Below, piece after piece: positions 15,076 through 55,900 of a stretch of 64,000 bases of DNA (positions within the stretch are counted from its first letter, which is position 1; each line of letters starts with the position of its first letter). Source of the stretch: Lamellibrachia satsuma (lineage: Eukaryota > Annelida > Polychaeta > Sabellida > Siboglinidae); contig BSQZ01000026.1 in the NCBI GenBank assembly GCA_033239005.1, forward strand, positions 6,341,501-6,405,500, in the 5' to 3' direction. The notes under the pieces are model-generated. The model searched no databases, was not told the DNA's origin, and saw only the letters and a list, made by a program, of their open reading frames with translations. The translations under genes and the position numbers were made by a program.

Positions 15076-15127
15076 TATCATGCATGGTTACATAGGAAAT
15101 AAAATGTATACACACAGTGTGTGATGC

Positions 15128-15811: not shown

Positions 15812-15847
15812 TCCCGTTATACTAAACAGCTACATATATGCAATCAC

Positions 15848-23925: not shown

Positions 23926-24186
23926 TCACGACTTCCTTGGTGATTTACAATATTAGTCAAGTAAAATACTGGTTTTATCAAACAAATCTAGAATAAATAA
24001 ATTTAGAAGCCGTTTTGTTTAACACAACATTTTGTTTAACACAACGTGCTTAGGCATGTTGTATGTAGCATCAAACCATGTTGCAATGTACGTATAACCA
24101 CACGAGAACATTAAAAAATTGACAATCATAAAAAATATCTGAATTAGTCGTTGTACCCATGTCCTTCTGATAGTACTGTACACGAA

Positions 24187-24262
24187 TACATGCATGCATA
24201 CAAGCGTGCGTACATACGTGCGTACGCACACGCGCACGTACGTACGTACGTACGTACGTACA
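24187..24262. repeat. GTAC/GTGC microsatellite
   Basis: Alternating ACGT-type tetranucleotides just downstream of the donor of the collagen exon at 24275. Confidence 0.9.
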
Positions 24263-24274
24263 CATCATACATAC

Positions 24275-24418
24275 CTTCTCCAATCGGCTGAGTTGTCGGA
24301 ATAGATTTTCCAGCTCGACCCTGTGGTCTTGGTGCTCCTGGTACTCCTGTTGCTCCTGGTGATCCTGTTGCTCCTGGTGCTCCTGGTACTCCTTTTGCTC
24401 CTTTTGCTCCTGGTGCTC
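24275..24418 (-). CDS. Collagen-like gene, 3' Gly-X-Y exon
   Basis: 144 bp, acceptor ttctgcacattgcag| and donor GAGAAG|gtatg. In the register set by the upstream exon it reads [19 protein letters not shown] and so on. The frame offset by one is also open and gives a Gln/Glu/His-rich sequence ending [15 protein letters not shown], which looks like a coiled coil. Phase continuity favours the collagen reading. The exon is phase 1 at both ends, typical of modular collagen exons. Confidence 0.72.
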
Positions 24419-26234
24419 CTGCAATGTGCAGAAATATGCGGAAACGTAGTAGAAGATTTATTATGAATTAAATTAATTTTAAAATTAATAACATTTGTAA
24501 GGAAAGAGTGAAAGCTGAGAAGAGACTACGAAATGCAGGATATGCTTGAAAGAATACAAGACTTTCTTTTGTTAAGTTTGAGTTGTTCTCCTCTGTATTC
24601 ATTCTAAAACATAGTACACATCTTATGCATGACCTGGCTTTTAGGAATCCATATTGATAGTGATTTATTAATTTGTTCTTAACATAGAAACCCACCATAT
24701 ATAATATGCATGACCTGGCTTTTAGGAATCCATATTGATAGTGATTTATTAATTTTTTCTTAACATGGAAGTCCACCATATATAATATGCATGACCTGGC
24801 TTTTAGGAATCCATATTGATAGTGATTTATTAATTTGTTCTTAACATAGAAACCCACCATATATAGTATGTATGACCTGGCTTTTAGGAATCCATATTGA
24901 TAGTGATTTATTAATTTGTTCTTAACATGGAAGTCCACCATATATAGTGTGCATGACCTGGCTTTTAGGAATCCATATTGATAGTGATTTATTAATTTGT
25001 GCTTAACATGGAAGTCCACCATATATAGTATGCATGACCTGGCTTTTTGGAATCCATATTGAAAGTGATTTATTAATTTGTTCTTAACATGGAAGTCCCC
25101 CATATATAGTATGAATGACCTGGCTTTTAGGAATCCATATTGATAGTGATTTATTAATTTGTGCTTAACATGGAAGTCCACCATATATAATATGCATGAC
25201 CTGGCTTTTAGGAATACATATTGATAGTGATTTATTAATTTGTGCTTAACATGGAAGTCCACCATATATAATATGAATGACCTGGCTTTTAGGAATCCAT
25301 ATTGATAGTGATTTATTAATTTGTGCTTAACATGGAAGTCCACCATATATAATATGCATGACCTGGCTTTTAGGAATCCATATTGATAGTGATTTATTAA
25401 TTTGTTCTTAACATGGAAGTCCACCATATATAATATGCATGACCTGGCTTTTAGGAATCCATATTGATAGTGATTTATTAATTTGTGCTTAACATGGAAG
25501 TCCACCATATATAATATGCATGACCTGGCTTTTAGGAATCCATATTGATAGTGATTTATTAATTTGTTCTTAACATGGAAGTCCACCATATATAATATGC
25601 ATGACCTGGCTTTTAGGAATCCATATTGATAGCGATTTATTAATTTGTGCTTAACATGGAAGTCCACCATATATAATATGCATGACCTGGCTTTTAGGAA
25701 TCCATATTGATAGTGATTTATTAATTTGTGCTTAACATGGAAGTCCACCATATATAATATGCATGACCTGGCTTTTAGGAATCCATATTGATAGCGATTT
25801 ATTAATTTGTGCTTAACATGGAAGTCCACCATATATAATATGCATGACCTGGCTTTTAGGAATCCATATTGATAGCGATTTATTAATTTGTGCTTAACAT
25901 GGAAGTCCACCATATATAATATGAATGACTTGGCTTTTAGGAATCCATATTGATAGCGATTTATTAATTTGTGCTTAACATCGAAGTTCACCATATATAA
26001 TATGCATGACCTGGCTTTTAGGAATCCATATTGATAGCGATTTATTAATTTTTGCTTAACATGGAAGTCCACCATATATAATATGCATGACCTGGCTTTT
26101 AGGAATCCATATTCATAGTGATTTATTAATTTGTGCTTAACATGGAAGTCCACCATATATAATATGCATGACCTGGCTTTTAGGAATCCATATTGATAGT
26201 GATTTATTAATTTTTTCTTAACATGGAAGTCCAT

Positions 26235-26321
<87 letters not shown>

Positions 26322-28931
26322 GCATGACCTGGCTTTTAGGAATCCATATTGATAGTAATTTATTAACTTGTGCTTAACATGGAAGTCCACCATATATGAT
26401 ATGCATGACTTTGCTTTTAGGAATCCATATTGATAGTGATTTATTAATTTGTGCTTAACATGGAAGTCCTCCATATATAATATGCATGACCTGCCTTTTA
26501 AGAATCCATATTGATAGTGATTTATTAATTTGTGCTTAACATGGAAGTCCACCATATATAATATGCATGACCTGGCTTTTAGGAATCGATATTGATAGTG
26601 ATTTATTAATTTGTTCTTAACATGGAAGTCCACCATATATAATATGCATGACCTGGCTTTTAGGAATCCATATTGATAGCGATTTATTAATTTGTGCTTA
26701 ACATGGAAGTCCACCATATATAATATGCATGACCTGGCTTTTAGGAATCCATATTGATATTGATTTATTAATGTGTGCTTAACATTGCAGTCCACCATAT
26801 ATAATATGCACGACCTGGCTTTTAGGAATCCATATTGATAGTGATTTATTAATTTGTGCTTAACATGGAAGTCCACTATATATAATATGCACGACCTGGC
26901 TTTTAGGAATCCATATTGATAGTGATTTATTAATTTGTGCTTAAAATGGAAGTCCACCATATATAATATGCACGACCTGGCTTTTAGGAATCCATATTGA
27001 TAGTGATTTATTAATTTGTGCTTAACATGGAAGTCCACCATATATAATATGCATGACCTGGCTTTTAGGAATCCATATTGATAGTGATTTATTAATTTGT
27101 GCTTAACATGGAAGTCCACCATATATAATATGCATGACCTGGCCTTTAGGAATCCATATTGATAGTGATTTATTATTTTTTTCTTAATATGGAAGTCCAC
27201 CAATATATATATATATATATATATATTATGCATGACCTGGCTTTTAGGAATCCATATTGATAGTGATTTATTAACTTGTGCTTAACATGGAAGTCCACCA
27301 TATATAATATGCATGACTTTGCTTTTAGGAATCCATATTGATAGTGATTTATTAATTTGTGCTTAACGTGGAAGTCCTCCATATATAATATGCATGACCT
27401 GGCTTTTAAGAAGCCATATTGATAGTGATTTATTAATTTGTTCTTAACATGGAAGTCCACCATATATAATATGCATGACCTGGCTTTTAGGAATCCATAT
27501 TGATAGTGATTTATTAATTTGTTCTTAACATAGAAACCCACCATATATAGTATGTATGACCTGGCTTTTAGGAATCCATATTGATAGTGATTTATTAATT
27601 TGTTCTTAACATGGAAGTCCACCATATATAGTGTGCATGACCTGGCTTTTAGGAATCCATATTGATAGTGATTTATTAATTTGTGCTTAACATGGAAGTC
27701 CACCATATATAGTATGCATGACCTGGCTTTTTGGAATCCATATTGAAAGTGATTTATTAATTTGTTCTTAACATGGAAGTCCCCCATATATAGTATGAAT
27801 GACCTGGCTTTTAGGAATCCATATTGATAGTGATTTATTAATTTGTGCTTAACATGGAAGTCCACCAATTATAATATGCATGACCTGGCTTTTAGGAATA
27901 CATATTGATAGTGATTTATTAATTTGTGCTTAACATGGAAGTCCACCATATATAATATGAATGACCTGGCTTTTAGGAATCCATATTGATAGTGATTTAT
28001 TAATTTGTGCTTAACATGGAAGTCCACCATATATAATATGCATGACCTGGCTTTTAGGAATCCATATTGATAGTGATTTATTAATTTGTTCTTAACATGG
28101 AAGTCCACCATATATAGTATACATGACCTGGCTTTTAGGAATCCATATTGATAGTGATTTATTAATTTGTGCTTAACATGGAAGTCCACCATATATAATA
28201 TGCATGACCTGGCTTTTAGGAATCCATATTGATAGTGATTTATTAATTTGTTCTTAACATGGAAGTCCACCATATATAGTATGCATGACCTGGCTTTTAG
28301 GAATCCATATTGATAGTGATTTATTAATTTGTGCTTAACATGGAAGTCCACCATATATAATATGCATGACCTGGCTTTTAGGAATCCATATTGATAGTGA
28401 TTTATTAATTTGTGCTTAACATGGAAGTCCACCATATATAATATGCATGACCTGGGTTTTAGGAATCCATATTGATAGCGATTTATTAATTTGTGCTTAA
28501 CATGGAAGTCCACCATATATAATATGCATGACCTGGCTTTTAGGAATCCATATTGATAGCGATTTATTAATTTGTGCTTAACATGGAAGTCCACCATATA
28601 TAATATGAATGACTTGGCTTTTAGGAATCCATATTGATAGCGATTTATTAATTTGTGCTTAACATCGAAGTTCACCATATATAATATGCATGACCTGGCT
28701 TTTAGGAATCCATATTGATAGCGATTTATTAATTTTTGCTTAACATGGAAGTCCACCATATATAATATGCATGACCTGGCTTTTAGGAATCCATATTCAT
28801 AGTGATTTATTAATTTGTGCTTAACATGGAAGTCCACCATATATAATATGCATGACCTGGCTTTTAGGAATCCATATTGATAGTGATTTATTAATTTTTT
28901 CTTAACATGGAAGTCCACCAATATATCTATA

Positions 28932-28995
<64 letters not shown>

Positions 28996-31900
28996 GCATG
29001 ACCTGGCTTTTAGGAATCCATATTGATAGTAATTTATTAACTTGTGCTTAACATGGAAGTCCACCATATATGATATGCATGACTTTGCTTTTAGGAATCC
29101 ATATTGATAGTGATTTATTAATTTGTGCTTAACATGGAAGTCCTCCATATATAATATGCATGACCTACCTTTTAAGAATCCATATTGATAGTGATTTATT
29201 AATTTGTGCTTAACATGGAAGTCCACCATATATAATATGCATGACCTGGCTTTTAGGAATCGATATTGATAGTGATTTATTAATTTGTTCTTAACATGGA
29301 AGTCCACCATATATAATATGCATGACCTGGCTTTTAGGAATCCATATTGATAGCGATTTATTAATTTGTGCTTAACATGGAAGTCCACCATATATAATAT
29401 GCATGACCTGGCTTTTAGGAATCCATATTGATATTGATTTATTAATGTGTGCTTAACATTGCAGTCCACCATATATAATATGCACGACCTGGCTTTTAGG
29501 AATCCATATTGATAGTGATTTATTAATTTGTGCTTAACATGGAAGTCCACTATATATAATATGCACGACCTGGCTTTTAGGAATCCATATTGATAGTGAT
29601 TTATTAATTTGTGCTTAAAATGGAAGTCCACCATATATAATATGCACGACCTGGCTTTTAGGAATCCATATTGATAGTGATTTATTAATTTGTGCTTAAC
29701 ATGGAAGTCCACCATATATAATATGCATGACTTGGTTTTAGGAATCCATATTGATAGTGATTTATTAATTTGTGCTTAACATGGAAGTCCACCATATATA
29801 ATATGCATGACCTGGCTTTTAGGAATCCATATTGATAGTGATTTATTAATTTTTTCTTAACATGGAAGTCCACCAATATATATATATATATATATTATGC
29901 ATGACCTGGCTTTTAGGAATCCATATTGATAGTGATTTATTAACTTGTGCTTAACATGGAAGTCCACCATATATGATATGCATGACTTTGCTTTTAGGAA
30001 TCCATATTGATAGTGATTTATTAATTTGTGCTTAACATGGAAGTCCTCCATATATAATATGCATGACCTGGCTTTTAAGAATCCATATTGATAGTGATTT
30101 ATTAGTTTGTTCTTAACATGGAAGTCCACCATATATAATATGCATGACCTGGCTTTTAGGAATCCATATTGATATTGATTTATTAATGTGTGCTTAACAT
30201 GGCAGTCCACCATATATAATATGCACGACCTGGCTTTTAGGAATCAATATTGATAGTGATTTATTAATTTGTGCTTAACATGGAAGTCCACCATATTAAA
30301 TGCATATTAAATATGGTGGACTTACATGTTAAGCACAAATTAATAAATCACTATCAATATGGATTCCTAAAAGCCAGGTCATACATATTATATATGGTGA
30401 ACTTCCATGTTAAGCAAAAATTAATAAATCGCTATCAATATGGATTCCTAAAAGCCAGGTCATGCATATATATATGACCTGGCTTTTAGGAATCCATATT
30501 GATAGTGATTTATTAATTTTTCTTAACATGGAAGTCCACCATATATATATGCATGACCTGGCTTTTAGGAATCCATATTGATAGTGATTTATTAATTTGT
30601 GCATAACATGGAAGTCCACCATATATAATATGCATGACCTGGCTTTTAGGAATCCATATTGATAGTGATTTATTAATTTGTCTTAACATGGAAGTCCACC
30701 ATATATAATATGCATGACCTGGCTTTTAGAATCCATATTGATAGTGATTTATTAATTTGTGCTTAACATGGAAGTCCACCATATATAATATGCATGACCT
30801 GGCTTTTAGGAATCCATATTGATAGTGATTTATTATTTGTGCTTAACATGGAAGTCCACCATATATAATATGCATGACCTGGCCTTTTAGGAATCCATAT
30901 TGATAGTGATTTATTAATTTGTGCTTAACATGGAAGTCCACCATATATAATATGCATGACCTGGCTTTTAGGAATCCATATTGATAGTGATTTATTAATT
31001 TGTGCTTAACATGGAAGTCCACCATATATAATATGCATGACCTGGCTTTTAGGAATCCATATTGATAGTGATTTATTAATTTGTGCTTAACATGGAAGTC
31101 CACCATATATAATATGCATGACCTGGCTTTTAGGAATCCATATTGATAGCGATTTATTAATTTGTGCTTAACATGGAAGTCCACCAATATATATATATAT
31201 ATATATTATGCATGACCTGGCTTTTAGGAATCCATATTGATAGTGATTTATTAACTTGTGCTTAACATGGAAGTCCACCATATATGATATGCATGACTTT
31301 GCTTTTAGGAATCCATATTGATAGTGATTTATTAATTTGTGCTTAACATGGAAGTCCTCCATATATAATATGCATAACCTGGCTTTTAGGAATCAATATT
31401 GATAGTGATTTATTAATTTGTTCTTAACATGGAAGTCCACCATATATAATATGCATGACCTGGCTTTTAGGAATCCATATTGATATTGATTTATTAATGT
31501 GTGCTTAACATGGCAGTCCACCATATATAATATGCACGACCTGACTTTTAGGAATCCATATTGAGAGTGATTTATTAATTTGTGCTTAACATGGAAGTCC
31601 ACCATATATAATATGCACGACCTGGCTTTTAGGAATCCATATTGAGAGTGATTTATTAATTTGTGCTTAACATGGAAGTCCACCATATATAATATGCACG
31701 ACCTGGCTTTTAGGAATCCATATTGATAGTGATTTATTAATTTGTGCTTAACATGGAAGTCCATCATATATAATATGCACGACCTGGCTTTTAGGAATCC
31801 ATATTGATAGCGATTTATTAATTTGTGCCTAACATGGTAGTCCACCATATATAATATGCATGAGCTGCCTTTTAGGAATCCATATTGATAGCGATTTATT

Positions 31901-34900
31901 AATTTGTGCTTAACATGGAAGTCCACCATACATAATGTGCATGACCTGGCTTTTAGGAATCCATATTCATAGCGATTTATTAATTTGTGCTTAACATGGA
32001 AGTCCACCATATATAATATGCACGACCTGGCTTTTAGGAATCCATATTGATAGCGATTTATTAATTTGTGCTTAACATGGAAGTCCACCATATATAACAT
32101 GCATGACTTGGCTTTTAGGAATCCATATTGATAGCGATTTATTAATTTGTGCTTAACATGGAAGTTCACCATATATAATATGCATGACCTGGCTTTTAGG
32201 AATCCATATTGATAGCGATTTATTAATTTTTGCTTAACATGGAAGTTCACCATATATAATATGTATGACCTGGCTTTTACGAATCCATATTGATAGTGAT
32301 TTATTAATTTGTGCTTAACATGGAAGTCCACCATATATAATATGCATGACCTGGCTTTTAGGAATCCATATTGATAGTGATTTATTAATTTGTTCTTAAC
32401 ATGGAAGTCCACCATATATAATATGCATGACCTGGCTTTTAGGAATCCATATTGATAGCGATTTATTAATTTGTGCTTAACATGGAAGTCCACCATATAT
32501 AATATACATGATCTGGCTTTTAGGAATCCATATTGATAGTGATTTATTAATTTGTGCTTAACATGGAAGTCCACCATATATAATATGCACGACCTTGCTT
32601 TTAGGAATCCATATTGATAGCGATTTATTAATTTGTGCTTAACATGGTAGTCCACCATATATAATATGCATGAGCTGGCTTTTAGGAATCCATATTGATA
32701 TTGATTTATTAATGTGTACTTAACATGGCAGTCCACTATATATAATATGCATGACCTGGCTTTTAGGAATCCATATTGATAGTGATTTATTAATTTGTGC
32801 TTAACATGGCAGTCCACCATATATAATATGCATGACCTGGCTTTTAGGAATCCATATTGATAGTGATTTAATAATTTGTTCTTAACATGGAAGTCCACCA
32901 TATATAATATGCATGACCTGGCTTTTAGGAATCCATATTGATAGTGATTTATTAATTTGTGCTTAACATGGAAGTCCACCATATATAATATGCATGACCT
33001 GGCTTTTAGGAATCCATATTGATAGTGATTTATTAATTTGTGCTTAACATGGAAGTCCACCATATATAATATGCATGACCTGGCTTTTAGGAATCCATAT
33101 TGATAGTGATTTATTAATTTGTGCTTAACATGGAAGTCCACCATATATAATATGCATGACCTGGCTTTTAGGAATCCATATTGATAGTGATTTATTAATT
33201 TGTGCTTAACATGGAAGTCCACCATATATAATATGCATGACCTGGCTTTTAGGAATCCATATTGATAGTGATTTATTAATTTGTGCTTAACATGGAAGTC
33301 CACCATATATAATATGCATGACCTGGCTTTTAGGAATCCATATTGATAGTGATTTATTAATTTGTGCTTAACATGGAAGTCCACCATATATAATATGATT
33401 GACCTGGCTTTTAGGAATCCATATTGATAGTGATTTATTAATTTGTGCTTAACATGGAAGTCCACCATATATAATATGCATGACCTGGCTTTTAGGAATC
33501 CATATTGATAGTGATTTATTAATTTGTTCTTAACATGGAAGTCCACCATATATAGTATGCATGACCTGGCTTTTAGGAATCCATATTGATAGTGATTTAT
33601 TAATTTGTGCTTAACATGGAAGTCCACCATATATAATATGCATGACCTGGCTTTTAGGAATCCATATTGATAGTGATTTATTAATTTGTGCTTAACATGG
33701 AAGTCCACCATATATAATATGCATGACCTGGCTTTTAGGAATCCATATTGATAGTGATTTATTAATTTGTGCTTAACATGGAAGTCCACCATATATAATA
33801 TGCATGACCTGGCTTTTAGGAATCCATATTGATAGTGATTTATTAATTTGTGCTTAACATGGAAGTCCACCATATATAATATGCATGACCTGGCTTTTAG
33901 GAATCCATATTGATAGTGATTTATTAATTTGTGCTTAACATGGAAGTCCACCATATATAATATGCATGACCTGGCTTTTAGGAATCCATATTGATAGTGA
34001 TTTATTAATTTGTGCTTAACATGGAAGTCCACCATATATAATATGCATGACCTGGCTTTTAGGAATCCATATTGATAGTGATTTATTAATTTGTGCTTAA
34101 CATGGAAGTCCACCATATATAATATGCATGACCTGGCTTTTAGGAATCCATATTGATAGTGATTTATTAATTTGTGCTTAACATGGAAGTCCACCATATA
34201 TAATATGCATGACCTGGCTTTTAGGAATCCATATTGATAGTGATTTATTAATTTGTGCTTAACATGGAAGTCCACCATATATAATATGCATGACCTGGCT
34301 TTTAGGAATCCATATTGATAGTGATTTATTAATTTGTGCTTAACATGGAAGTCCACCATATATAATATGCATGACCTGGCTTTTAGGAATCCATATTGAT
34401 AGTGATTTATTAATTTGTGCTTAACATGGAAGTCCACCATATATATATATGCATGACCTGGCTTTTAGGAATCCATATTGATAGTGATTTATTAATTTGT
34501 GCTTAACATGGAAGTCCACCATATATAATATGCATGACCTGGCTTTTAGGAATCCATATTGATAGTGATTTATTAATTTGTGCTTAACATGGAAGTCCAC
34601 CATATATAATATGCATGACCTGGCTTTTAGGAATCCATATTGATAGTGATTTATTAATTTGTGCTTAACATGGAAGTCCACCATATATAATATGCATGAC
34701 CTGGCTTTTAGGAATCCATATTGATAGTGATTTATTAATTTGTGCTTAACATGGAAGTCCACCATATATAATATGCATGACCTGGCTTTTAGGAATCCAT
34801 ATTGATAGTGATTTATTAATTTGTTCTTAACATGGAAGTCCACCATATATAATATGCATGACCTGGCTTTTAGGAATCCATATTGATAGTGATTTATTAA

Positions 34901-37900
34901 TTTGTGCTTAACATGGAAGTCCACCATATATAATATGCATGACCTGGCTTTTAGGAATCCATATTGATAGTGATTTATTAATTTGTGCTTAACATGGAAG
35001 TCCACCATATATAATATGCATGACCTGGCTTTTAGGAATCCATATTGATAGTGATTTATTAATTTGTGCTTAACATGGAAGTCCACCTATATATAATATT
35101 AATGCACGACCTGGCTTTTAGGAATCCATATTGATAGTGATTTATTAATTTGTGCTTAACATGGAAGTCCACCATATATAATATGCATGACCTGGCTTTT
35201 AGGAATCCATATTGATAGTGATTTATTAATTTGTGCTTAACATGGAAGTCCACCATATATAATATGCATGACCTGGCTTTTAGGAATCCATATTGATAGT
35301 GATTTATTAATTTGTGCTTAACATGGAAGTCCACCATATATAATATGCATGACCTGGCTTTTAGGAATCCATATTGATAGTGATTTATTAATTTTTGCTT
35401 AACATGGAAGTCCACCATATATAATATGCATGACCTGGCTTTTAGGAATCCATATTGATAGTGATTTATTAATTTGTGCTTAACATGGAAGTCCACCATA
35501 TATAATATGCATGACCTGGCTTTTAGGAATCCATATTGATAGTGATTTATTAATTTGTGCTTAACATGGAAGTCCACCATATATAATATGCATGACCTGG
35601 CTTTTAGGAATCCATATTGATAGTGATTTATTAATTTGTGCTTAACATGGAAGTCCACCATATATAATATGCATGACCTGGCTTTTAGGAATCCATATTG
35701 ATAGTGATTTATTAATTTGTGCTTAACATGGAAGTCCACCATATATAATATGCATGACCTGGCTTTTAGGAATCCATATTGATAGTGATTTATTAATTTG
35801 TGCTTAACATGGAAGTCCACCATATATAATATGCATGACCTGGCTTTTAGGAATCCATATTGATAGTGATTTATTAATTTGTGCTTAACATGGAAGTCCA
35901 CCATATATAATATGCATGACCTGGCTTTTAGGAATCCATATTGATAGTGATTTATTAATTTGTGCTTAACATGGAAGTCCACCATATATAATATGCATGA
36001 CCTGGCTTTTAGGAATCCATATTGATAGTGATTTATTAATTTGTGCTTAACATGGAAGTCCACCATATATAATATGCATGACCTGGCTTTTAGGAATCCA
36101 TATTGATAGTGATTTATTAATTTGTGCTTAACATGGAAGTCCACCATATATAATATGCATGACCTGGCTTTTAGGAATCCATATTGATAGTGATTTATTA
36201 ATTTGTGCTTAACATGGAAGTCCACCATATATAATATGCATGACCTGGCTTTTAGGAATCCATATTGATAGTGATTTATTAATTTGTGCTTAACATGGAA
36301 GTCCACCATATATAATATGCATGACCTGGCTTTTAGGAATCCATATTGATAGTGATTTATTAATTTGTGCTTAACATGGAAGTCCACCATATATAATATG
36401 CATGACCTGGCTTTTAGGAATCCATATTGATAGTGATTTATTAATTTGTGCTTAACATGGAAGTCCACCATATATAATATGCATGACCTGGCTTTTAGGA
36501 ATCCATATTGATAGTGATTTATTAATTTGTGCTTAACATGGAAGTCCACCATATATAATATGCATGACCTGGCTTTTAGGAATCCATATTGATAGTGATT
36601 TATTAATTTGTGCTTAACATGGAAGTCCACCATATATAATATGCATGACCTGGCTTTTAGGAATCCATATTGATAGTGATTTATTAATTTGTGCTTAACA
36701 TGGAAGTCCACCATATATAATATGCATGACCTGGCTTTTAGGAATCCATATTGATAGTGATTTATTAATTTGTTCTTAACATGGAAGTCCACCATATATA
36801 ATATGCATGACCTGGCTTTTAGGAATCCATATTGATAGTGATTTATTAATTTGTGCTTAACATGGAAGTCCACCATATATAATATGCATGACCTGGCTTT
36901 TAGGAATCCATATTGATAGTGATTTATTAATTTGTGCTTAACATGGAAGTCCACCATATATAATATGCATGACCTGGCTTTTAGGAATCCATATTGATAG
37001 TGATTTATTAATTTGTTCTTAACATGGAAGTCCACCATATATAATATGCATGACCTGGCTTTTAGGAATCCATATTGATAGTGATTTATTAATTTGTGCT
37101 TAACATGGAAGTCCACCATATATAATATGCATGACCTGGCTTTTAGGAATCCATATTGATAGTGATTTATTAATTTGTGCTTAACATGGAAGTCCACCAT
37201 ATATAATATGCATGATCTGGCTTTTAGGAATCCATATTGATAGTGATTTATTAATTTGTGCTTAACATGGAAGTCCACCATATATAATATGCATGATCTG
37301 GCTTTTAGGAATCCATATTGATAGTGATTTATTAATTTGTGCTTAACATGGAAGTCCACCATATATAATATGCATGATCTGGCTTTTAGGAATCCATATT
37401 GATAGTGATTTATTAATTTGTGCTTAACATGGAAGTCCACCATATATAATATGGATGACCTGGCTTTTAGGAATCCATATTGATATTGATTTATTAATGT
37501 GTGCTTAACATGGAAGTCCACTATATATAATATGCATGACCTGGCTTTTAGGAATCCATATTGATAGTGATTTATTAATTTGTGCTTAACATGGAAGTCC
37601 ACCATATATAATATGCATGACCTGGCTTTTAGGAATCCATATTGATAGTGATTTATTAATTTTTGCTTAACATGGAAGTCCACCATATATAATATGCATG
37701 ATCTGGCTTTTAGGAATCCATATTGATAGTGATTTATTAATTTGTGCTTAACATGGAAGTCCACCATATATAATATGCATGATCTGGCTTTTAGGAATCC
37801 ATATTGATAGTGATTTATTAATTTGTGCTTAACATGGAAGTCCACCATATATAATATGCATGACCTGGCTTTTAGGAATCCATATTGATAGTGATTTATT

Positions 37901-40900: not shown

Positions 40901-43900
40901 AATTTGTGCTTAACATGGAAGTCCACCATATATAATATGCATGACCTGGCTTTTAGGAATCCATATTGATAGTGATTTATTAATTTTTTCTTAATATGGA
41001 AGTCCACCAATATATATATATACATTATGCATGACCTGGCTTTTAGGAATCCATATTGATAGTGATTTATTAACTTGTGCTTAACATGGAAGTCCACCAT
41101 ATATAATATGCATGACTTTGCTTTTAGGAATCCATATTGATAGTGATTTATTAATTTGTGCTTAACGTGGAAGTCCTCCATATATAATATGCATGACCTG
41201 GCTTTTAAGAATACATATTGATAGTGATTTATTAATTTGTGCTTAACATGGAAGTCCACCATATATAATATGCATGACCTGGCTTTTAGGAATCCATATT
41301 GATAGTGATTTATTAATTTGTGCTTAACATGGAAGTCCACCATATATAATATGCATGACCTGGCTTTTAGGAATCCATATTGATAGTGATTTATTAATTT
41401 GTGCTTAACATGGAAGTCCACCATATATAATATGCATGACCTGGCTTTTAGGAATCCATATTGATAGTGATTTATTAATTTGTGCTTAACATGGAAGTCC
41501 ACCATATATAATATGCATGACCTGGCTTTTAGGAATCCATATTGATAGTGATTTATTAATTTGTGCTTAACATGGAAGTCCACCATATATAATATGCATG
41601 ACCTGGCTTTTAGGAATCCATATTGATAGTGATTTATTATTTTTTTCTTAACATGGAAGTCCACCATATATAGTATGCATGACCTGGCTTTTAGGAATTC
41701 ATATTGATAGTGATTTATTAATTTGTGCTTAACATGGAAGTCCACTATATATAATATGTATGACCTGGCTTTTAGGAATCCATACTGATAGTGATTTATT
41801 ATTTTTTCTTAACATGGAAGTCCACCAATATATATAATGTGCATGACCTGGCTTTTAGGAATCCATATTGATAGTGATTTATTAACTTGTGCATAACATG
41901 GAAGTCCACCATATATAATATGCATGACCTGGCTTTTAGGAATCCATATTGATAGTGATTTATTAATTTGTGCTTAACATGGAAGTCCACCATATATAAT
42001 ATGCATGACCTGGCTTTTAGGAATCCATATTGATAGTGATTTATTAATTTGTGCTTAACATGGAAGTCCACTATATATAATATGCATGACCTGGCTTTTA
42101 GGAATCCATATTGATAGTGATTTATTATTTTTTTCTTAACATGGAAGTCCACCATATATAGTATGCATGACCTGGCTTTTAGGAATCCATATTGATAGTG
42201 ATTTATTAATTTGTTCTTAACATGGAAGTCCACCATATATAGTATGCATGACCTGGCTTTTAGGAATCCATATTGATAGTGATTTATTAATTTGTGCTTA
42301 ACATGGAAGTCCACCATATATAATATGCATGACCTGGCTTTTAGGAATCCATATTGATAGTGATTTATTAATTTGTGCTTAACATGGAAGTCCACCATAT
42401 ATAATATGCATGACCTGGCTTTTAGGAATCCATATTGATAGTGATTTATTAATTTGTGCTTAACATGGAAGTCCACCATATATAATATGCATGACCTGGC
42501 TTTTAGGAATCCATATTGATAGTGATTTATTAATTTGTGCTTAACATGGAAGTCCACCATATATAATATGCATGACCTGGCTTTTAGGAATCCATATTGA
42601 TAGTGATTTATTAATTTGTGCTTAACATGGAAGTCCACCATATATAATATGCATGACCTGGCTTTTAGGAATCCATATTGATAGTGATTTATTAATTTGT
42701 GCTTAACATGGAAGTCCACCATATATAATATGCATGACCTGGCTTTTAGGAATCCATATTGATAGTGATTTATTAATTTGTGCTTAACATGGAAGTCCAC
42801 CATATATAATATGCATGACCTGGCTTTTAGGAATCCATATTGATAGTGATTTATTAATTTGTGCTTAACATGGAAGTCCACCATATATAATATGCATGAC
42901 CTGGCTTTTAGGAATCCATATTGATAGTGATTTATTAATTTGTGCTTAACATGGAAGTCCACCATATATAATATGCATGACCTGGCTTTTAGGAATCCAT
43001 ATTGATAGTGATTTATTAATTTGTGCTTAACATGGAAGTCCACCATATATAATATGCATGACCTGGCTTTTAGGAATCCATATTGATAGTGATTTATTAA
43101 TTTGTGCTTAACATGGAAGTCCACCATATATAATATGCATGACCTGGCTTTTAGGAATCCATATTGATAGTGATTTATTAATTTGTGCTTAACATGGAAG
43201 TCCACCATATATAATATGCATGACCTGGCTTTTAGGAATCCATATTGATAGTGATTTATTAATTTGTGCTTAACATGGAAGTCCACCATATATAATATGC
43301 ATGACCTGGCTTTTAGGAATCCATATTGATAGTGATTTATTAATTTTTTTCTTAATATGGAAGTCCACCAATATATATATATATATTATGCATGACCTGG
43401 CTTTTAGGAATCCATATTGATAGTGATTTATTAACTTGTGCTTAACATGGAAGTCCACCATATATAATATGCATGACTTTGCTTTTAGGAATCCATATTG
43501 ATAGTGATTTATTAATTTGTGCTTAACGTGGAAGTCCTCCATATATAATATGCATGACCTGGCTTTTAAGAATACATATTGATAGTGATTTATTAATTTG
43601 TGCTTAACATGGAAGTCCACCATATATAATATGCATGACCTGGCTTTTAGGAATCGATATTGATAGTGATTTATTAATTTGTTCTTAACATGGAAGTCCA
43701 CCATATATAATATGCATGACCTGGCTTTTAGGAATCCATATTGATAGTGATTTATTAATTTGTGCTTAACATGGAAGTCCACCATATATAATATGCATGA
43801 CCTGGCTTTTAGGAATCCATATTGATAGTGATTTATTAATTTGTTCTTAACATGGAAGTCCACCATATATAATATGCATGACCTGGCTTTTAGGAATCCA

Positions 43901-46900
43901 TATTGATAGTGATTTATTAATTTGTGCTTAACATGGAAGTCCACCATATATAATATGCATGACCTGGCTTTTAGGAATCCATATTGATAGTGATTTATTA
44001 ATTTGTGCTTAACATGGAAGTCCACCATATATAATATGCATGACCTGGCTTTTAGGAATCCATATTGATAGTGATTTATTAATTTTTTCTTAACATGGAA
44101 GTCCACCATATATAATATGCATGACCTGGCTTTTAGGAATCCATATTGATAGTGATTTATTAATTTGTGCTTAACATGGAAGTCCACCATATATAATATG
44201 CATGACCTGGCTTTTAGGAATCCATATTGATAGTGTTTTATTAATTTGTGCTTAACATGGAAGTCCACCATATATAATATGCATGACCTGGCTTTTAGGA
44301 ATCCATATTGATAGTGATTTATTAATTTGTGCTTAACATGGAAGTCCACCATATATAATATGCATGACCTGGCTTTTAGGAATCCATATTGATAGTGATT
44401 TATTAATTTGTTCTTAACATGGAAGTCCACCATATATAATATGCATGACCTGGCTTTTAGGAATCCATATTGATAGTGATTTATTAATTTGTGCTTAACA
44501 TGGAAGTCCACCATATATAATATGCATGACCTGGCTTTTAGGAATCCATATTGATAGTGATTTATTAATTTGTGCTTAACATGGAAGTCCACCATATATA
44601 ATATGCATGACCTGGCTTTTAGGAATCCATATTGATAGTGATTTATTAATTTGTGCTTAACATGGAAGTCCACCATATATAATATGCATGACCTGGCTTT
44701 TAGGAATCCATATTGATAGTGATTTATTAATTTGTGCTTAACATGGAAGTCCACCATATATAATATGCATGACCTGGCTTTTAGGAATCCATATTGATAG
44801 TGATTTATTAATTTGTGCTTAACATGGAAGTCCACCATATATAATATGCATGACCTGGCTTTTAGGAATCCATATTGATAGTGATTTATTAATTTGTGCT
44901 TAACATGGAAGTCCACTATATATAATATGCATGACCTGGCTTTTAGGAATCCATATTGATAGTGATTTATTAATTTGTTCTTAACATGGAAGTCCACCAT
45001 ATATAATATGCATGACCTGGCTTTTAGGAATCCATATTGATAGTGATTTATTAATTTGTGCTTAACATGGAAGTCCACCATATATAATATGCATGACCTG
45101 GCTTTTAGGAATCCATATTGATAGTGATTTATTAATTTGTGCTTAACATGGAAGTCCACCATATATAATATGCATGACCTGGCTTTTAGGAATCCATATT
45201 GATAGTGATTTATTAATTTGTGCTTAACATGGAAGTCCACCATATATAATATGCATGACCTGGCTTTTAGGAATCCATATTGATAGTGATTTATTAATTT
45301 GTGCTCTTAACATGGAAGTCCACCATATATAATATGCATGACCTGGCTTTTAGGAATCCATATTGATAGTGATTTATTAATTTGTGCTTAACATGGAAGT
45401 CCACCATATATAATATGCATGACCTGGCTTTTAGGAATCCATATTGATAGTGATTTATTAATTTGTGCTTAACATGGAAGTCCACCATATATAATATGCA
45501 TGACCTGGCTTTTAGGAATCCATATTGATAGTGATTTATTAATTTGTGCTTAACATGGAAGTCCACCATATATAATATGCATGACCTGGCTTTTAGGAAT
45601 CCATATTGATAGTGATTTATTAATTTGTTCTTAACATGGAAGTCCACCATATATAATATGCATGACCTGGCTTTTAGGAATCCATATTGATAGTGATTTA
45701 TTAATTTGTGCTTAACATGGAAGTCCACCATATATAATATGCATGACCTGGCTTTTAGGAATCCATATTGATAGCGATTTATTAATTTGTGCTTAACATG
45801 GAAGTCCACCATATATAATATGCATGACCTGGCTTTTAGGAATCCATATTGATAGTGATTTATTAATTTGTGCTTAACATGGAAGTCCACCATATATAAT
45901 ATGCATGACCTGGCTTTTAGGAATCCATATTGATAGTGATTTATTAATTTGTGCTTAACATGGAAGTCCACCATATATAATATGCATGACCTGGCTTTTA
46001 GGAATCCATATTGATAGTGATTTATTAATTTGTGCTTAACATGGAAGTCCACTATATATAATATGCATGACCTGGCTTTTAGGAATCCATATTGATAGCG
46101 ATTTATTAATTTTTGCTTAACATGGAAGTCCACCATATATAATATGCATGACCTGGCTTTTAGGAATCCATATTGATAGCGATTTATTAATTTTTGCTTA
46201 ACATGGAAGTCCACCATATATAATATGCATGATCTGGCTTTTAGGAATCCATATTGATAGTGATTTATTAATTTGTGCTTAACATGGAAGTCCACCATAT
46301 ATAATATGCATGACCTGGCTTTTAGGAATCCATATTGATAGTGATTTAGTAATTTGTGCTTAACATGGAAGTCCACCATATATAATATGCATGACCTGGC
46401 TTTTAGGAATCCATATTGATAGTGATTTATTAATTTGTGCTTAACATGGAAGTCCACCATATATAATATGCATGACCTGGCTTTTAGGAATCCATATTGA
46501 TAGTGATTTATTAATTTGTGCTTAACATGGAAGTCCACCATATATAATATGCATGACCTGGCTTTTAGGAATCCATATTGATAGTGATTTATTAATTTGT
46601 GCTTAACATGGAAGTCCACCATATATAATATGCATGACCTGGCTTTTAGGAATCCATATTGATAGTGATTTATTAATTTGTGCTTAACATGGAAGTCCAC
46701 CATATATAATATGCATGACCTGGCTTTTAGGAATCCATATTGATAGTGATTTATTAATTTGTGCTTAACATGGAAGTCCACCATATATAATATGCATGAC
46801 CTGGCTTTTAGGAATCCATATTGATAGTGATTTATTAATTTGTGCTTAACATGGAAGTCCACCATATATAATATGCATGACCTGGCTTTTAGGAATCCAT

Positions 46901-49900
46901 ATTGATAGCGATTTATTAATTTTTGCTTAACATGGAAGTCCACCATATATAATATGCATGACCTGGCTTTTAGGAATCCATATTGATAGTGATTTATTAA
47001 TTTGTGCTTAACATGGAAGTCCACCATATATAATATGCATGACCTGGCTTTTAGGAATCCATATTGATAGTGATTTATTAATTTGTGCTTAACATGGAAG
47101 TCCACCATATATAATATGCATGACCTGGCTTTTAGGAATCCATATTGATAGCGATTTATTAATTTGTGCTTAACATGGAAGTCCACCATATATAATATGC
47201 ATGACCTGGCTTTTAGGAATCCATATTGATAGCGATTTATTAATTTGTGCTTAACATGGAAGTCCACCATATATAATATGCATGACCTGGCTTTTAGGAA
47301 TCCATATTGATAGTGATTTATTAATTTGTTCTTAACATGGAAGTCCACCATATATAATATGCAAGACCTGGCTTTTAGGAATCCATATTGATAGTGATTT
47401 ATTAATTTGTGCTTAACATGGAAGTCCACCATATATAATATGCATGACCTGGCTTTTAGGAATCCATATTGATAGTGATTTATTAATTTGTGCTTAACAT
47501 GGAAGTCCACCATATATAATATGCATGACCTGGCTTTTAGGAATCCATATTGATAGTGATTTATTAATTTGTGCTTAACATGGAAGTCCACCATATATAA
47601 TATGCATGACCTGGCTTTTAGGAATCCATATTGATAGTGATTTATTAATTTTTTCTTAACATGGAAGTCCACCAATATATATATATATTTATGCATGACC
47701 TGGCTTTTAGGAATCCATATTGATAGTGATTTATTAATTTGTGCTTAACATGGAAGTCCACCATATATAATATGCATGACCTGGCTTTTAGGAATCCATA
47801 TTGATAGTGATTTATTAATTTGTGCTTAACATGGAAGTCCACCATATATAATATGCATGACCTGGCTTTTAGAATCCATATTGATAGTGATTTATTAATT
47901 TGTGCTTAACATGGAAGTCCACCATATATAATATGCATGACCTGGCTTTTAGGAATCCATATTGATAGTGATTTATTAATTTGTTCTTAACATGGAAGTC
48001 CACCATATATAATATGCATGACCTGGCTTTTAGGAATCCATATTGATAGTGATTTATTAATTTGTGCTTAACATGGAAGTCCACCATATATAATATGCAT
48101 GACCTGGCTTTTAGGAATCCATATTGATAGTGATTTATTAATTTGTTCTTAACATGGAAGTCCACCATATATAGTATATATGACCTGGCTTTTAAGAATC
48201 CATATTGATAGTGATTTATTAATTTGTGCTTAACATGGAAGTCCACTATATATAATATGCATGACCTGGCTTTTAGGAATCCATATTGATAGTGATTTAT
48301 TATTTTTTTCTTAACATGGAAGTCCACCATATATAGTATGCATGACCTGGCTTTTAGGAATCCATATTGATAGTGATTTATTAATTTGTGCTTAACATGG
48401 AAGTCCACTATATATAATATGCATGACCTGGCTTTTAGGAATCCATATTGATAGTGATTTATTATTTTTTTCTAAACATGGAAGTCCACCAATATATATA
48501 ATATGCATGACCTGGCTTTTAGGAATTCATATTGATAGTGATTTATTAACTTGTGCATAACATGGAAGTCCACCATATATAATATGCATGACCTGGCTTT
48601 TAGGAATCCATATTGATAGTGATTTATTAATTTGTGCTTAACATGGAAGTCCACTATATATAATATGCATGACCTGGCTTTTAGGAATCCATATTGATAG
48701 TGATTTATTAATTTGTGCTTAACATGGAAGTCCACTATATATAATATGCATGACCTGGCTTTTAGGAATCCATATTGATAGTGATTTATTAATTTGTTCT
48801 TAACATGGAAGTCCACCATATATAATATGCATGACCTGGCTTTTAGGAATCCATATTGATAGTGATTTATTAATTTGTGCTTAACATGGAAGTCCACCAT
48901 ATATAATATGCATGACCTGGCTTTTAGGAATCCATATTGATAGTGATTTATTAATTTGTGCTTAACATGGAAGTCCACCATATATAATATGCATGACCTG
49001 GCTTTTAGGAATCCATATTGATAGTGATTTATTAATTTGTTCTTAACATGGAAGTCCACCATATATAATATGCATGACCTGGCTTTTAGGAATCCATATT
49101 GATAGTGATTTATTAATTTGTGCTTAACATGGAAGTCCACCATATATAATATGCATGACCTGGCTTTTAGGAATCCATATTGATAGCGATTTATTAATTT
49201 GTGCTTAACATGGAAGTCCACCATATATAATATGCATGACCTGGCTTTTAGGAATCCATATTGATAGTGATTTATTAATTTGTGCTTAACATGGAAGTCC
49301 ACCATATATAATATGCATGACCTGGCTTTTAGGAATCCATATTGATAGTGATTTATTAATTTGTGCTTAACATGGAAGTCCACCATATATAATATGCATG
49401 ACCTGGCTTTTAGGAATCCATATTGATAGTGATTTATTAATTTGTGCTTAACATGGAAGTCCACCATATATAATATGCATGACCTGGCTTTTAGGAATCC
49501 ATATTGATAGTGATTTATTAATTTGTTCTTAACATGGAAGTCCACCATATATAATATGCATGACCTGGCTTTTAGGAATCCATATTGATAGCGATTTATT
49601 AATTTGTGCTTAACATGGAAGTCCACCAATATATATATATATATATATTATGCATGACCTGGCTTTTAGGAATCCATATTGATAGTGATTTATTAACTTG
49701 TGCTTAACATGGAAGTCCACCATATATAATATGCATGACCTGGCTTTTAGGAATCCATATTGATAGTGATTTATTAATTTGTGCTTAACATGGAAGTCCA
49801 CCATATATAATATGCATGACCTGGCTTTTAGGAATCCATATTGATAGTGATTTATTAATTTGTGCTTAACATGGAAGTCCACCATATATAATATGCATGA

Positions 49901-52883
49901 CCTGGCTTTTAGGAATCCATATTGATAGTGATTTATTAATTTGTGCTTAACATGGAAGTCCACCATATATAATATGCATGACCTGGCTTTTAGGAATCCA
50001 TATTGATAGTGATTTATTAATTTGTGCTTAACATGGAAGTCCACCATATATAATATGCATGATCTGGCTGTTAGGAATCGATATTGATAGTGATTTATTA
50101 ATTTGTGCTTAACATGGAAGTCCACCATATATAATATGCATGACCTGGCTTTTAGGAATCCATATTGATAGTGATTTATTAATTTGTGCTTAACATGGAA
50201 GTCCACCATATATAATATGCATGACCTGGCTTTTAGGAATCCATATTGATAGTGATTTATTAATTTGTGCTTAACATGGAAGTCCACCATATATAATATG
50301 CATGACCTGGCTTTTAGGAATCCATATTGATAGTGATTTATTAATTTGTGCTTAACATGGAAGTCCACCATATATAATATGCATGACCTGGCTTTTAGGA
50401 ATCCATATTGATAGCGATTTATTAATTTGTGCTTAACATGGAAGTCCACCATATATAACATGCATGACTTGGCTTTTAGGAATCCATATTGATAGCGATT
50501 TATTAATTTGTGCTTAACATGGAAGTTCACCATATATAATATGCATGACCTGGCTTTTAGGAATCCATATTGATAGCGATTTATTAATTTTTGCTTAACA
50601 TGGAAGTTCACCATATATAATATGTATGACCTGGCTTTTACGAATCCATATTGATAGTGATTTATTAATTTGTGCTTAACATGGAAGTCCACCATATATA
50701 ATATGCATGACCTGGCTTTTAGGAATCCATATTGATAGTGATTTATTAATTTGTTCTTAACATGGAAGTCCACCATATATAATATGCATGACCTGGCTTT
50801 TAGGAATCCATATTGATAGTGATTTATTAATTTGTGCTTAACATGGAAGTCCACCATATATAATATGCATGACCTGGCTTTTAGGAATCCATATTGATAG
50901 TGATTTATTAATTTGTGCTTAACATGGAAGTCCACCATATATAATATGCATGACCTGGCTTTTAGGAATCCATATTGATAGTGATTTATTAATTTGTGCT
51001 TAACATGGAAGTCCACCATATATAATATGCATGACCTGGCTTTTAGGAATCCATATTGATAGTGATTTATTAATTTGTGCTTAACATGGAAGTCCACCAT
51101 ATATAATATGCATGACCTGGCTTTTAGGAATCCATATTGATAGTGATTTATTAATTTGTGCTTAACATGGAAGTCCACCATATATAATATGCATGACCTG
51201 GCTTTTAGGAATCCATATTGATAGTGATTTATTAATTTGTTCTTAACATGGAAGTCCACCATATATAATATGCATGACCTGGCTTTTAGGAATCCATATT
51301 GATAGTGATTTATTAATTTGTGCTTAACATGGAAGTCCACCATATATAATATGCATGACCTGGCTTTTAGGAATCCATATTGATAGTGATTTATTAATTT
51401 GTGCTTAACATGGAAGTCCACCATATATAATATGCATGACCTGGCTTTTAGGAATCCATATTGATAGTGATTTATTAATTTGTGCTTAACATGGAAGTCC
51501 ACCATATATAATATGCATGACCTGGCTTTTAGGAATCCATATTGATAGTGATTTATTAATTTGTGCTTAACATGGAAGTCCACCATATATAATATGCATG
51601 ACCTGGCTTTTAGGAATCCATATTGATAGTGATTTATTAATTTGTGCTTAACATGGAAGTCCACCATATATAATATGCATGACCTGGCTTTTAGGAATCC
51701 ATATTGATAGTGATTTATTAATTTGTGCTTAACATGGAAGTCCACCATATATAATATGCATGACCTGGCTTTTAGGAATCGATATTGATAGTGATTTATT
51801 AATTTGTTCTTAACATGGAAGTCCACCATATATAATATGCATGACCTGGCTTTTAGGAATCCATATTGATATTGATTTATTAATGTGTGCTTAACATGGA
51901 AGTCCACTATATATAATATGCATGACCTGGCTTTTAGGAATCCATATTGATAGTGATTTATTATTTTTTTCTTAACATGGAAGTCCACCATATATAGTAT
52001 GCATGACCTGGCTTTTAGGAATCCATATTGATAGTGATTTATTAATTTGTTCTTAACATGGAAGTCCACCATATATAGTATGCATGACCTGGCTTTTAGG
52101 AATCCATATTGATAGTGATTTATTATTTTTTTCTTAACATGGAAGTCCACCAATATATATAATATGCATGACCTGGCTTTTAGGAATTCATATTGATAGT
52201 GATTTATTAATTTGTGCTTAACATGGAAGTCCACTATATATAATATGCATGACCTGGCTTTTAGGAATCCATACTGATAGTGATTTATTATTTTTTCTTA
52301 ACATGGAAGTCCACCAATATATATAATATGCATGACCTGGCTTTTAGGAATCCATATTGATAGTGATTTATTAACTTGTGCATAACATGGAAGTCCACCA
52401 TATATAATATGCATGACCTGGCTTTTAGGAATCCATATTGATAGTGATTTATTAATTTGTGCTTAACATGGAAGTCCACCATATATAATATGCATGACCT
52501 GGCTTTTAGGAATCCATATTGATAGTGATTTATTAATTTGTGCTTAACATGGAAGTCCACCATATATAATATGCATGACCTGGCTTTTAGGAATCCATAT
52601 TGATAGTGATTTATTAATTTGTTCTTAACATGGAAGTCCACCATATATAATATGCATGACCTGGCTTTTAGGAATCCATATTGATAGTGATTTATTAATT
52701 TGTGCTTAACATGGAAGTCCACCATATATAATATGCATGACCTGGCTTTTAGGAATCCATATTGATAGTGATTTATTAATTTGTGCTTAACATGGAAGTC
52801 CACCATATATAATATGCATGACCTGGCTTTTAGGAATCCATATTGATAGTGATTTATTAATTTTTTCTTAACATGGAAGTCCA

Positions 52884-52919
<36 letters not shown>

Positions 52920-55900
52920 GCATGACCTGGCTTTTAGGAATCCATATTGATAGTGATTTATTAACTTGTGCTTAACATGGAAGTCCACCATATATGATAT
53001 GCATGACTTTGCTTTTAGGAATCCATATTGATAGTGATTTATTAATTTGTGCTTAACATGGAAGTCCTCCATATATGATATGCATGACCTGGCTTTTAAG
53101 AATCCATATTGATAGTGATTTATTAATTTGTGCTTAACATGGAAGTCCACCATATATAATATGCATGACCTGGCTATTAGGAATCGATATTGATAGTGAT
53201 TTATTTATTTGTTCTTAACATGGAAGTCCACCATATATAATATGCATGACCTGGCTTTTAGGAATCCATATTGATATTGATTTATTAATGTGTGCTTAAC
53301 ATGGCAGTCCACTATATATAATATGCATGACGTGGCTTTTAGGAATCCATATTGGTAGTGATTTATTATTTTTTTCTTAACATGGAAGTCCACCATATAT
53401 AGTATGCATGACCTGGCTTTTAGGAATCCATATTGATAGTGATTTATTAATTTGTTCTTAACATGGAAGTCCACCATATATAGTATGCATGACCTGGCTT
53501 TTAGGAATCCATATTGATAGTGATTTATTAATTTGTTCTTAACATGGAAGTCCACCATATATAATATGCATGACCTGGCTTTTAGGAATCCATATTGATA
53601 GTGATTTATTAATTTGTGCTTAACATGGAAGTCCACTATATATAATATGCATGACCTGGCTTTTAGGAATCCATATTGATAGTGATTTATTAATTTGTTC
53701 TTAACATGGAAGTCCACCATATATAGTATGCATGACCTGGCTTTTAGGAATCCATATTGATAGTGATTTATTAATTTTTGCTTAACATGGAAGTCCACCA
53801 TATATAATATGCATGATCTGGCTTTTAGGAATCCATATTAATAATGATTTATTAATTTGTGCTTAACATGGAAGTCCACCATATATTATATGCATGACCT
53901 GGCTTTTAGGAATCGATATTGATAGTGATTTATTAATTTGTGCTTAACATGGAAGTCCACCACATATGATATGCATGACTTTGCTTTTAGGAATCCATAT
54001 TGATAGTGATTTATTAATTTGTGCTTAACATGGAAGTCCACCATATATAATATGCATGATCTGGCTTTTAGGAATCTATATTGATAGTGATTTATTAATT
54101 TGTGCTTAACATGGAATTCCACCATATATAATATGCATGACCTGGCTTTTAGGAATCCATATTGATAGTGATTTATTAACTTGTGCTTAACATGGAAGTC
54201 CACCATATATAATATGCATGACATGGCTTTTAGGAATCCATATTGATAGTGATTTATTAATTTGTGCTTAACATGGAAGTCCACCATATATAATATGCAT
54301 GACCTGGCTTTTAGGAATCCATATTGATAGTGATTTATTAATTTGTGCTTAACATGGAAGTCCACCATATATAATATGCATGACCTGGCTTTTAGGAATC
54401 GATATTGATAGTGATTTATTAATTTGTTCTTAACATGGAAGTCCACCATATATAATATGCATGACCTGGCTTTTAGGATCCATATTGATATTGATTAATT
54501 AATGTGTGCTTAACATGGAAGTCCACTATATATAATATGTATGACCTGGCTTTTAGGAATCCATATTGATAGTGATTTATTAATTTGTGCTTAACATTGA
54601 AGTCCACTATATATAATATGCATGACCTGGCTTTTAGGAATCCATATTGATAGTGATTTATTAATTTGTTCTTAACATGGAAGTCCACCATATATAGTAT
54701 GCATGACCTGGCTTTTAGGAATCCATATTGATAGTGATTTATTAATTTGTGCTTAACATGGAAGTCCACCATATATAATATGCATGACCTGGCTTTTAGG
54801 AATCCATATTGATAGTGATTTATTATTTTTTCTTAACATGGAAGTCCACCGTATATAGTATGGATGACCTGGCTTTTAGGAATCCATATTGATAGTGATT
54901 TATTAATTTGTTCTTAACATGGAAGTCCACCATATGGTCTTTAATTAACATTTCTAATAACTAACAAATCAAATCAAAACTTTAGTACTTTTGCTAGTAG
55001 TATTCTAAATTGTTCTACTATTTCCATTTTTAGTCTAAGTGGACTTCCATAAACTACAGGCGATTTAGCACCTTCATTGCATGCATTGTCTTAGCTACAA
55101 GTTCTGGAAATACACTTAACTCATCTAAACCGTCTGGTGTAACCTCCTGAAATTTAGCATCTGATTCTGGTTATGAACTAATATCATATCTGGTAAACAT
55201 TGAAGTAATGTACCCTTTTACATCTTACCTTAGTGATTTTTTTTCAAAAACAAAACATAACATATTTGTTAAGCATGACTTCGCTTTTAGGAAGCCATGT
55301 AGAGCTGGATTTAATAATGTATGACTAACGAGATAGTGCACCATATGGTCTTTAGTTAACCTTTCTAATAATTTATAAATCACTGATGTTAATCTCACTA
55401 GTCTGTAATTCGCTAAGGTGTTTTTCAGACCTTTTTTAAATAATTGTATGACGTTTGCTTCTTTCCATTCAAAAGGAATCACTCCCTATTTTCATGATCA
55501 GTTGAACACTGGTAGTGGTACACTAATTTGTTCTACTGTTTCAATTAGTAGTCTTGTTGGAATTCCATCCACTCCAGATGATTTGTTATCCTTCACTCTC
55601 TTTTCTTTCTGGTAAACACTGAACTGAATTATACATTTATGTCTTCCGCCATTAAAAGCTGTGTGCTATTATAGTTCAAGCACCGTCTTCTAGTGGTCCA
55701 AACTTGTCTTGTATGTTTTGTTTACTCCTGGCATATGCATAGGAATTCTTGCCGCCAGTTTCATTGTTACATATTAATTGTTGCCCATAGCTTCTTTTAG
55801 ATTGTCTAATTTCAGTCGTAGCTGCATTAAGTACCTGTTTGCAATTTGTGAATTCATCATCCTTTCTGGTACGCCTATAAACCGTTCACATTGTTTGTTT

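Follow-up and report, generated by a model that had tools for sequence, protein, structure and literature searches.

A 30-kb tandem array of 27 reverse transcriptase codons and its unamplified paralogous site in Lamellibrachia satsuma

Organisation of the array and its number of loci

We analysed a stretch of 64,000 nucleotides from the annelid Lamellibrachia satsuma (hereafter the window; contig BSQZ01000026.1, or C26, positions C26:6341501-6405500), in which 371 monomers of 81 bp form a tandem array of about 30 kb on the minus strand, at window positions 24620-54935. Each monomer corresponds to 27 codons of a reverse transcriptase (RT) of the long interspersed nuclear element (LINE) type, and two decayed LINE copies, here called relic 1 and relic 2, lie at the right end of the array. 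A second locus on the same contig, the paralog, holds the same site with a single unit, and the array was most likely amplified in place from the interior of an RT gene, as the initial annotation of this stretch had proposed. The features on which the argument turns are the following:

24620..54935, minus strand: tandem array, 81-bp unit, 371 monomers, 27 LINE-type RT codons (VDFHVKHKLINHYQYGFLKARSCILYM) (Tandem Repeats Finder, nhmmer, RT family profile)
30316..30469, plus strand: two units in inverted orientation inside the array (nhmmer)
54931..54935, minus strand: upstream ATATG copy at the right edge of the array (sequence and paralog alignment)
54936..55230, minus strand: relic 1, the parent RT relic, a heavily deleted copy that directly adjoins the array's right edge and keeps its register (tblastn, paralog alignment)
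55243..55999, minus strand: relic 2, a second LINE relic and the one quoted by the initial annotation, with one unit at 55262-55340 (nhmmer, tblastn)
24606..24619, minus strand: left edge, RT-like over at most about 7 codons (tblastn, anchored test, paralog)

The roughly 370 head-to-tail copies first estimated agree with an nhmmer scan of the window with the unit, which returned 372 matches: 371 in the array and one in relic 2. Only 6 of the 372 are partial, and the array monomers divide into 369 on the minus strand and 2 on the plus strand. The copy number is that of the assembled sequence, in which the repeats may be miscounted. Tandem Repeats Finder reports a period of 81 at 24624-52898 and 52909-54935. 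The monomers are on average 98.1% identical to their consensus when gaps are counted as mismatches, and 162 of the 371 are exact copies. Start-to-start spacing is exactly 81 at 290 steps, and several of the irregular steps fall at AT runs on unit junctions, the longest being 82 bp at 26237. Such (AT)n runs have grown at junctions throughout the array (26237-26318, 27203-27226, 28934-28991, 52887-52916 and others), and some of them sit in longer duplicated blocks.

The initial annotation had suggested searching the assembly (735 Mb, 279 contigs) for other arrays, which we did with a 30-base word spanning the unit junction, allowing up to 3 mismatches. Across the assembly it has 347 occurrences, 1 forward and 346 reverse, and the window alone gives the same 347, again 1 and 346; the word read backwards occurs 0 times. 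At up to 3 mismatches the junction word thus gives no array at any further locus. A whole-assembly similarity search with the array skips very common words and so does not return the array itself; it was left out of the array counts. Because a multi-locus distribution was looked for and a single locus was found in the assembly at this threshold, the word "satellite" here denotes a long tandem array, not a classical satellite with arrays at several loci; "very large minisatellite" is an alternative name. The viral contigs contain 0 exact matches to a 43-base word of the unit, Rfam at gathering thresholds gives 0 matches in the window, and ARAGORN gives 0 genes for transfer RNA or transfer-messenger RNA.

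Reverse transcriptase origin of the unit and its edges

Read on the minus strand in the original RT frame, the unit gives VDFHVKHKLINHYQYGFLKARSCILYM; it is reverse TRANSCRIPTASE, LINE-type, with 27 coding codons in the original frame. To gather the RT family we read through the neighbouring relics and scored candidates against 122 residues of the result; of 466 candidates, 292 proteins had E <= 0.001. The Pfam domain RVT_1 is present in all 120 relatives listed of the 292, and in one relative, P0005, it is found at E 3.1e-32. Beyond the RT domain we take the family to be LINE; it is presumably CR1-like, a label of our own. Another database relative, P0001, has two RT domains in tandem within one open frame.

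Over the 27 residues of the unit the family consensus is VDFLVKHKLLNSSQHGFLKARSCLTNM, drawn from 119 occurrences in the 120 listed proteins that comprise just 17 distinct sequences, and it is identical to the unit at 19 of 27 residues in the same register. Against the family profile the unit scores 95.8, and the best of 1,000 shuffled units (162 registers) scores 24.8. The DNA agrees: the unit matches relic 2 without gaps at 58 of 81 positions, and 5,000 single-letter shuffles, tried in all registers and on both strands, reach 42 of 81 at best. The initial annotation had read the unit as a piece of LINE RT in its original frame and had named alignment no better than with shuffled sequence as the result that would overturn this; at both levels the unit aligns far better than that.

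At the right edge the array passes directly into its source. Before the first unit the RT continues on the minus strand as LLEMLIKDHM and then VDFHV, 23 of the 25 bases before ATATG match relic 2 (a manual count on the alignment), a tblastn alignment crosses the edge into RT, and the end of the array runs in register into relic 1. When relic 1 was used as a query (301 bases) and 40 of 1,044 candidates were scored, the window itself matched at 100% and the paralog at 94%; the other full-length matches among those scored lie at 74-78%, plus one 36-base piece at 94%. The parent of the array is relic 1, fused to its right edge, and relic 2 is an older, more distant relative, a cousin. We rejected relic 2 as parent, since it is relic 1 that adjoins the array and that the paralog keeps together with one unit. 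The claim that the parent still stands beside the array therefore holds as to an adjoining RT, but the parent is relic 1 (54936-55230) and not relic 2, which the initial annotation had quoted.

The left edge is less distinct. The last unit runs on as SCIRCVLCF, which aligns with SCLTNMLCF of RT. When the comparison is anchored after Ser-Cys, the scores for 5, 6 and 7 codons are ones that 7.7%, 0.38% and 0.019% of roughly 48,000 positions in the flanks also reach. Left of the edge stands non-RT sequence common to the paralog, as far as about 24490, and the identity of the left edge is taken from the paralog because the paralog has this same non-RT flank.

The unamplified paralogous locus and the ATATG repeats

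The paralog lies at C26:8237253-8244445, 1.9 Mb away, and is collinear, with gaps, to window 58190-20934 minus the array; the main pieces among the matches listed have about 77-94% identity. When the window flanks are joined with one monomer between them, they align through the paralog across the array site. Between its counterparts of these flanks the paralog has exactly one unit, which agrees with the array consensus at 72 of 81 positions. We also fetched 18 LINE loci, 17 of which hold the segment, and the 16 other loci of this set that contain it likewise have a single unit, the junction word being confined to the window; the unit has been amplified beyond its parent element. Substitutions in the unit were polarised by the majority state among relic 2 and four LINE copies, a further copy, L004, being omitted for an indel: 9 are common to the array and the paralog only, 4 are found in the array only and 5 in the paralog only.

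The paralog, with its single unit, has these relics as well, so the flanking RT is older than the array. The deletions in the relics are likewise older, and the array was therefore born from a dead copy. The initial annotation had also allowed that arrays elsewhere might point to a different origin, with the flanking RT a later insertion; there is no other array at the threshold used, and the RT is the older of the two. Both loci contain further small repeats. The paralog has its own 13-bp array of about 5 copies between the relics (L027:9283-9350, or C26:8240282-8240349), to which the window has no counterpart and which is another small repeat begun in the sister locus. A diverged 13-bp array (TTCCGTGTTACTG) is present in both the window (20942-21991) and the paralog (C26:8243435-8244622), and is apparently older than the locus duplication.

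The unit in the paralog has ATATG at offsets 0 and 81, and relic 2 has two ATATG words exactly 81 bp apart, flanking the segment equivalent to the unit. As relic 2 is unamplified and has this pair, the period of the array equals the spacing of two 5-bp direct repeats. In the flanks, 5-mers recur at a distance of 81 at 0.39% of positions. The two sites encode His-Met and Asn-Met, and Met is found at both in 113 of 118 occurrences, many of them in near-identical proteins. Seven of the 17 segment-holding LINE loci (L001-L003, L005, L006, L041 and L042) have the exact pair; these seven, as well as L004, which has no pair, were fetched from places that a search using the array as query had listed.

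Amplification, alternative origins and host gene

Monomers differ from one another by a mean pairwise divergence of 0.028 and from the consensus by 0.015. The flanks of the window and paralog, compared over nine chosen aligned pieces that leave out the 13-bp array, AT runs and collagen exon 2, differ by a Kimura two-parameter (K2P) distance of 0.088 over 4,393 aligned sites. Ages based on these divergences are rough because homogenisation lowers the divergence of an array. With gaps counted as matches, identity to the consensus reaches 99.8% in the cleanest bins of 20 monomers, which lie at 32.9-36.1 kb and at 44.3-45.9 kb, and is 94% and 95% in the outermost monomers. Among 168 diverged, overlapping blocks of six monomers, 113 have a copy of more than 98% identity elsewhere in the array, and for 46 of the 113 that copy is 32 monomers away. 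Block duplication of this kind is the pattern that would be expected from unequal exchange or conversion.

These observations lead us to a two-step origin, which we regard as very probable: a 27-codon piece of a dead LINE-type RT gave rise to 371 copies at one locus in situ, through duplication between ATATG repeats followed by unequal exchange. The founder would have been an already dead, deleted LINE copy with a pair of ATATG words 81 bp apart. Slippage or microhomology-mediated repair may have used this pair for the first duplication, and unequal crossing-over or conversion may then have driven later growth and homogenisation. The amplification would have come after the duplication of the locus.

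Several observations weigh against this account. None of the 9 segment-holding loci among the 10 found with relic 1 (L031-L040) has the exact ATATG pair, the paralog's own relic 2 does not have it, and the array's own left edge reads ATGTG (a manual reading, where the alignment is poor). As the pair is missing in 9 of 9 copies that were not chosen for resemblance to the array, we infer the founder's repeat from the paralog unit and relic 2; a lone 5-bp repeat is weak evidence. The left end suggests that about 7 RT codons at most are kept, which makes for a weak edge: a signal comes from the anchored test over 6-7 codons alone. When the 203 bases beyond the unit on that side were scanned without an anchor and with frameshifts allowed, no RT signal appeared; the best match (21.0) falls in another part of the flank, and 103 of 150 shuffles did as well. 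The most diverged bin is internal (31279-32898, 96.7%), so a pattern of young centre and old edges holds only approximately.

The order of events could also be the reverse, with the array predating the locus duplication and unequal exchange later reducing the paralog to one unit. A tandem array can shrink to a single copy, and the comparison covers just two loci. We nevertheless hold this course of events to be unlikely, given that each of the 16 other fetched LINE loci with the segment has a single unit, that the paralog is without all 4 substitutions common to the array, and that the array divergence of 0.028 is well below the 0.088 of the flanks, though homogenisation can lower the array figure. 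The chance is slim that the array formed elsewhere, for example by way of extrachromosomal circles, and was then inserted into the relic. The available passages of a 2025 review (PMC12628747) name rolling-circle and extrachromosomal routes among the proposals for how satellites arise, but the right edge is in register with relic 1, both flanks of this site recur in the paralog with one unit between them, and the junction word is found at no other locus. Circles excised from and returned to the same site are possible as a growth step in the in situ origin that we prefer.

Slimmer still is the chance that the array encodes a selected repetitive protein. Open stretches of up to 1,435 codons occur in its minus-strand frame, on the strand of a predicted collagen gene, but long open frames are expected because the unit is free of stops and 81 is divisible by three. 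The 84 distinct monomer variants comprise 19 synonymous, 59 nonsynonymous and 6 stop changes, against a neutral expectation of 17.8, 60.2 and 6.0, so that no coding constraint on monomer variation is detected by this comparison. These neutral counts led us to reject a coding function, and the array also sits in a predicted intron. Finally, the idea that the RT likeness is a coincidence of AT-rich sequence has a negligible chance of being right: Pfam finds no RVT_1 in three consecutive units (its matches are unrelated families, all below curated cut-offs), which might be expected at 27 residues, and the shuffle tests, the right-edge register with the flanking RT and the paralog refute it.

The collagen-like gene around the array is predicted as follows:

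57716..57782, minus strand: predicted exon 1 of the collagen-like gene, signal-peptide-like MTPFATLVGVGSLLLIFSTVQG (GT-AG junctions, open frame, paralog exon)
57281..57526, minus strand: predicted exon 2, Gly-X-Y repeats (GT-AG junctions, open frame, paralog exon)
24419..57280, minus strand: predicted intron 2, 32,862 bp, holding the array and both relics (exon prediction)
24275..24418, minus strand: predicted exon 3, Gly-X-Y repeats (GT-AG junctions, open frame)

The three predicted exons have GT-AG junctions and a joined open frame, with the signal-peptide-like stretch first, and place the array and relics in a predicted intron. Since coding constraint is undetected, the array most likely has no coding role, and splicing would remove it along with this intron. 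The paralog has a similar signal exon and collagen exon. The stretch of predicted exon 3 (window 24113-24489) is unmatched in the paralog alignments (C26:8240842-8240896), and the collagen genes of the two loci seem to differ in structure. Elsewhere in the window, RT-tail-like fragments of the same LINE family lie on the plus strand, in opposite orientation to the relics, at 60436-60594 and 61124-61156, the latter a weak match (E 0.14-0.8). A different, less decayed retroelement, split over frames, occupies 15125-17655 on the plus strand, with RVT_1 at E 1.3e-23 for 16519-17655.

Relatives of this array are known in kind. A review tabulates satellites related to LINE open reading frame 2 (ORF2), namely HinfI/SCR1 and CR1 of Gallus gallus, PROsat of Phodopus roborovskii and Pvc20 of Phoca vitulina concolor, and in the passages available it concludes that any transposon part may serve as a satellite source (PMC9659126). 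The array resembles these in that its monomer is related to a LINE coding region; it differs, as far as that table describes them, in that the unit lies wholly inside the RT, spans 27 codons, is amplified at one locus and keeps its flanks and an unamplified sister. The initial annotation called birth from a coding RT motif unusual, which is right in so far as it is uncommon, but with such ORF2-related satellites on record it is not unheard of (PMC9659126). For minisatellites, Haber and Louis (1998, as cited in PMC3389668) proposed an origin from segments flanked by direct repeats of 5-10 bp, and 300 human tandem repeats derived from transposable elements are described in passages of the citing paper as flanked by repeats of 5-20 bp (PMC3389668). 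Here too a segment bounded by a 5-bp direct repeat, seen in the paralog unit and relic 2, would have been duplicated and expanded, although, unlike the minisatellites of that model, to 371 copies and about 30 kb. Degraded transposons in heterochromatin are proposed, in parts of the 2025 review, to seed composite satellites (PMC12628747); as in that graveyard hypothesis a dead, rearranged element is the seed, but instead of composite monomers in heterochromatin we find a monomer made of one RT fragment, within the predicted intron of a gene. The maize repeats CRM1TR and CRM4TR are likewise local tandem repeats wholly from one retrotransposon family, and according to passages of the maize paper they come, unlike this array, from the long terminal repeat and untranslated region of Ty3/gypsy centromeric retrotransposons (PMC3648361). 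In the open-licence literature, covered through listings and passages, we found no earlier description of such an array with an unamplified paralogous site. Source and mechanism are already known in kind; founder, flanks and unamplified sister together are unusual.

We also consider, tentatively and as rather doubtful, that the LINE family is itself a built-in satellite trap. His-Met and Asn-Met stand 27 codons apart, and where these sites are spelled CATATG and AATATG any copy could duplicate an in-frame, stop-free unit of 81 bp; this locus would then be a runaway product with an unamplified sister. If so, the sister would be a natural control and the whole birth of a satellite could be read from sequence.

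The beginnings of satellites are hard to study, as the founder is usually lost. In this case the founder relic, the breakpoints and both flanks have survived together with an unamplified paralogous site, and diagnostic substitutions link the array to the one copy in the paralog. The two-step model of short-repeat duplication followed by unequal exchange thereby becomes testable in related species and individuals. The locus indicates that a dead coding fragment in a predicted intron can seed a 30-kb array, and that this capacity is not confined to terminal or non-coding parts of transposons in heterochromatin.

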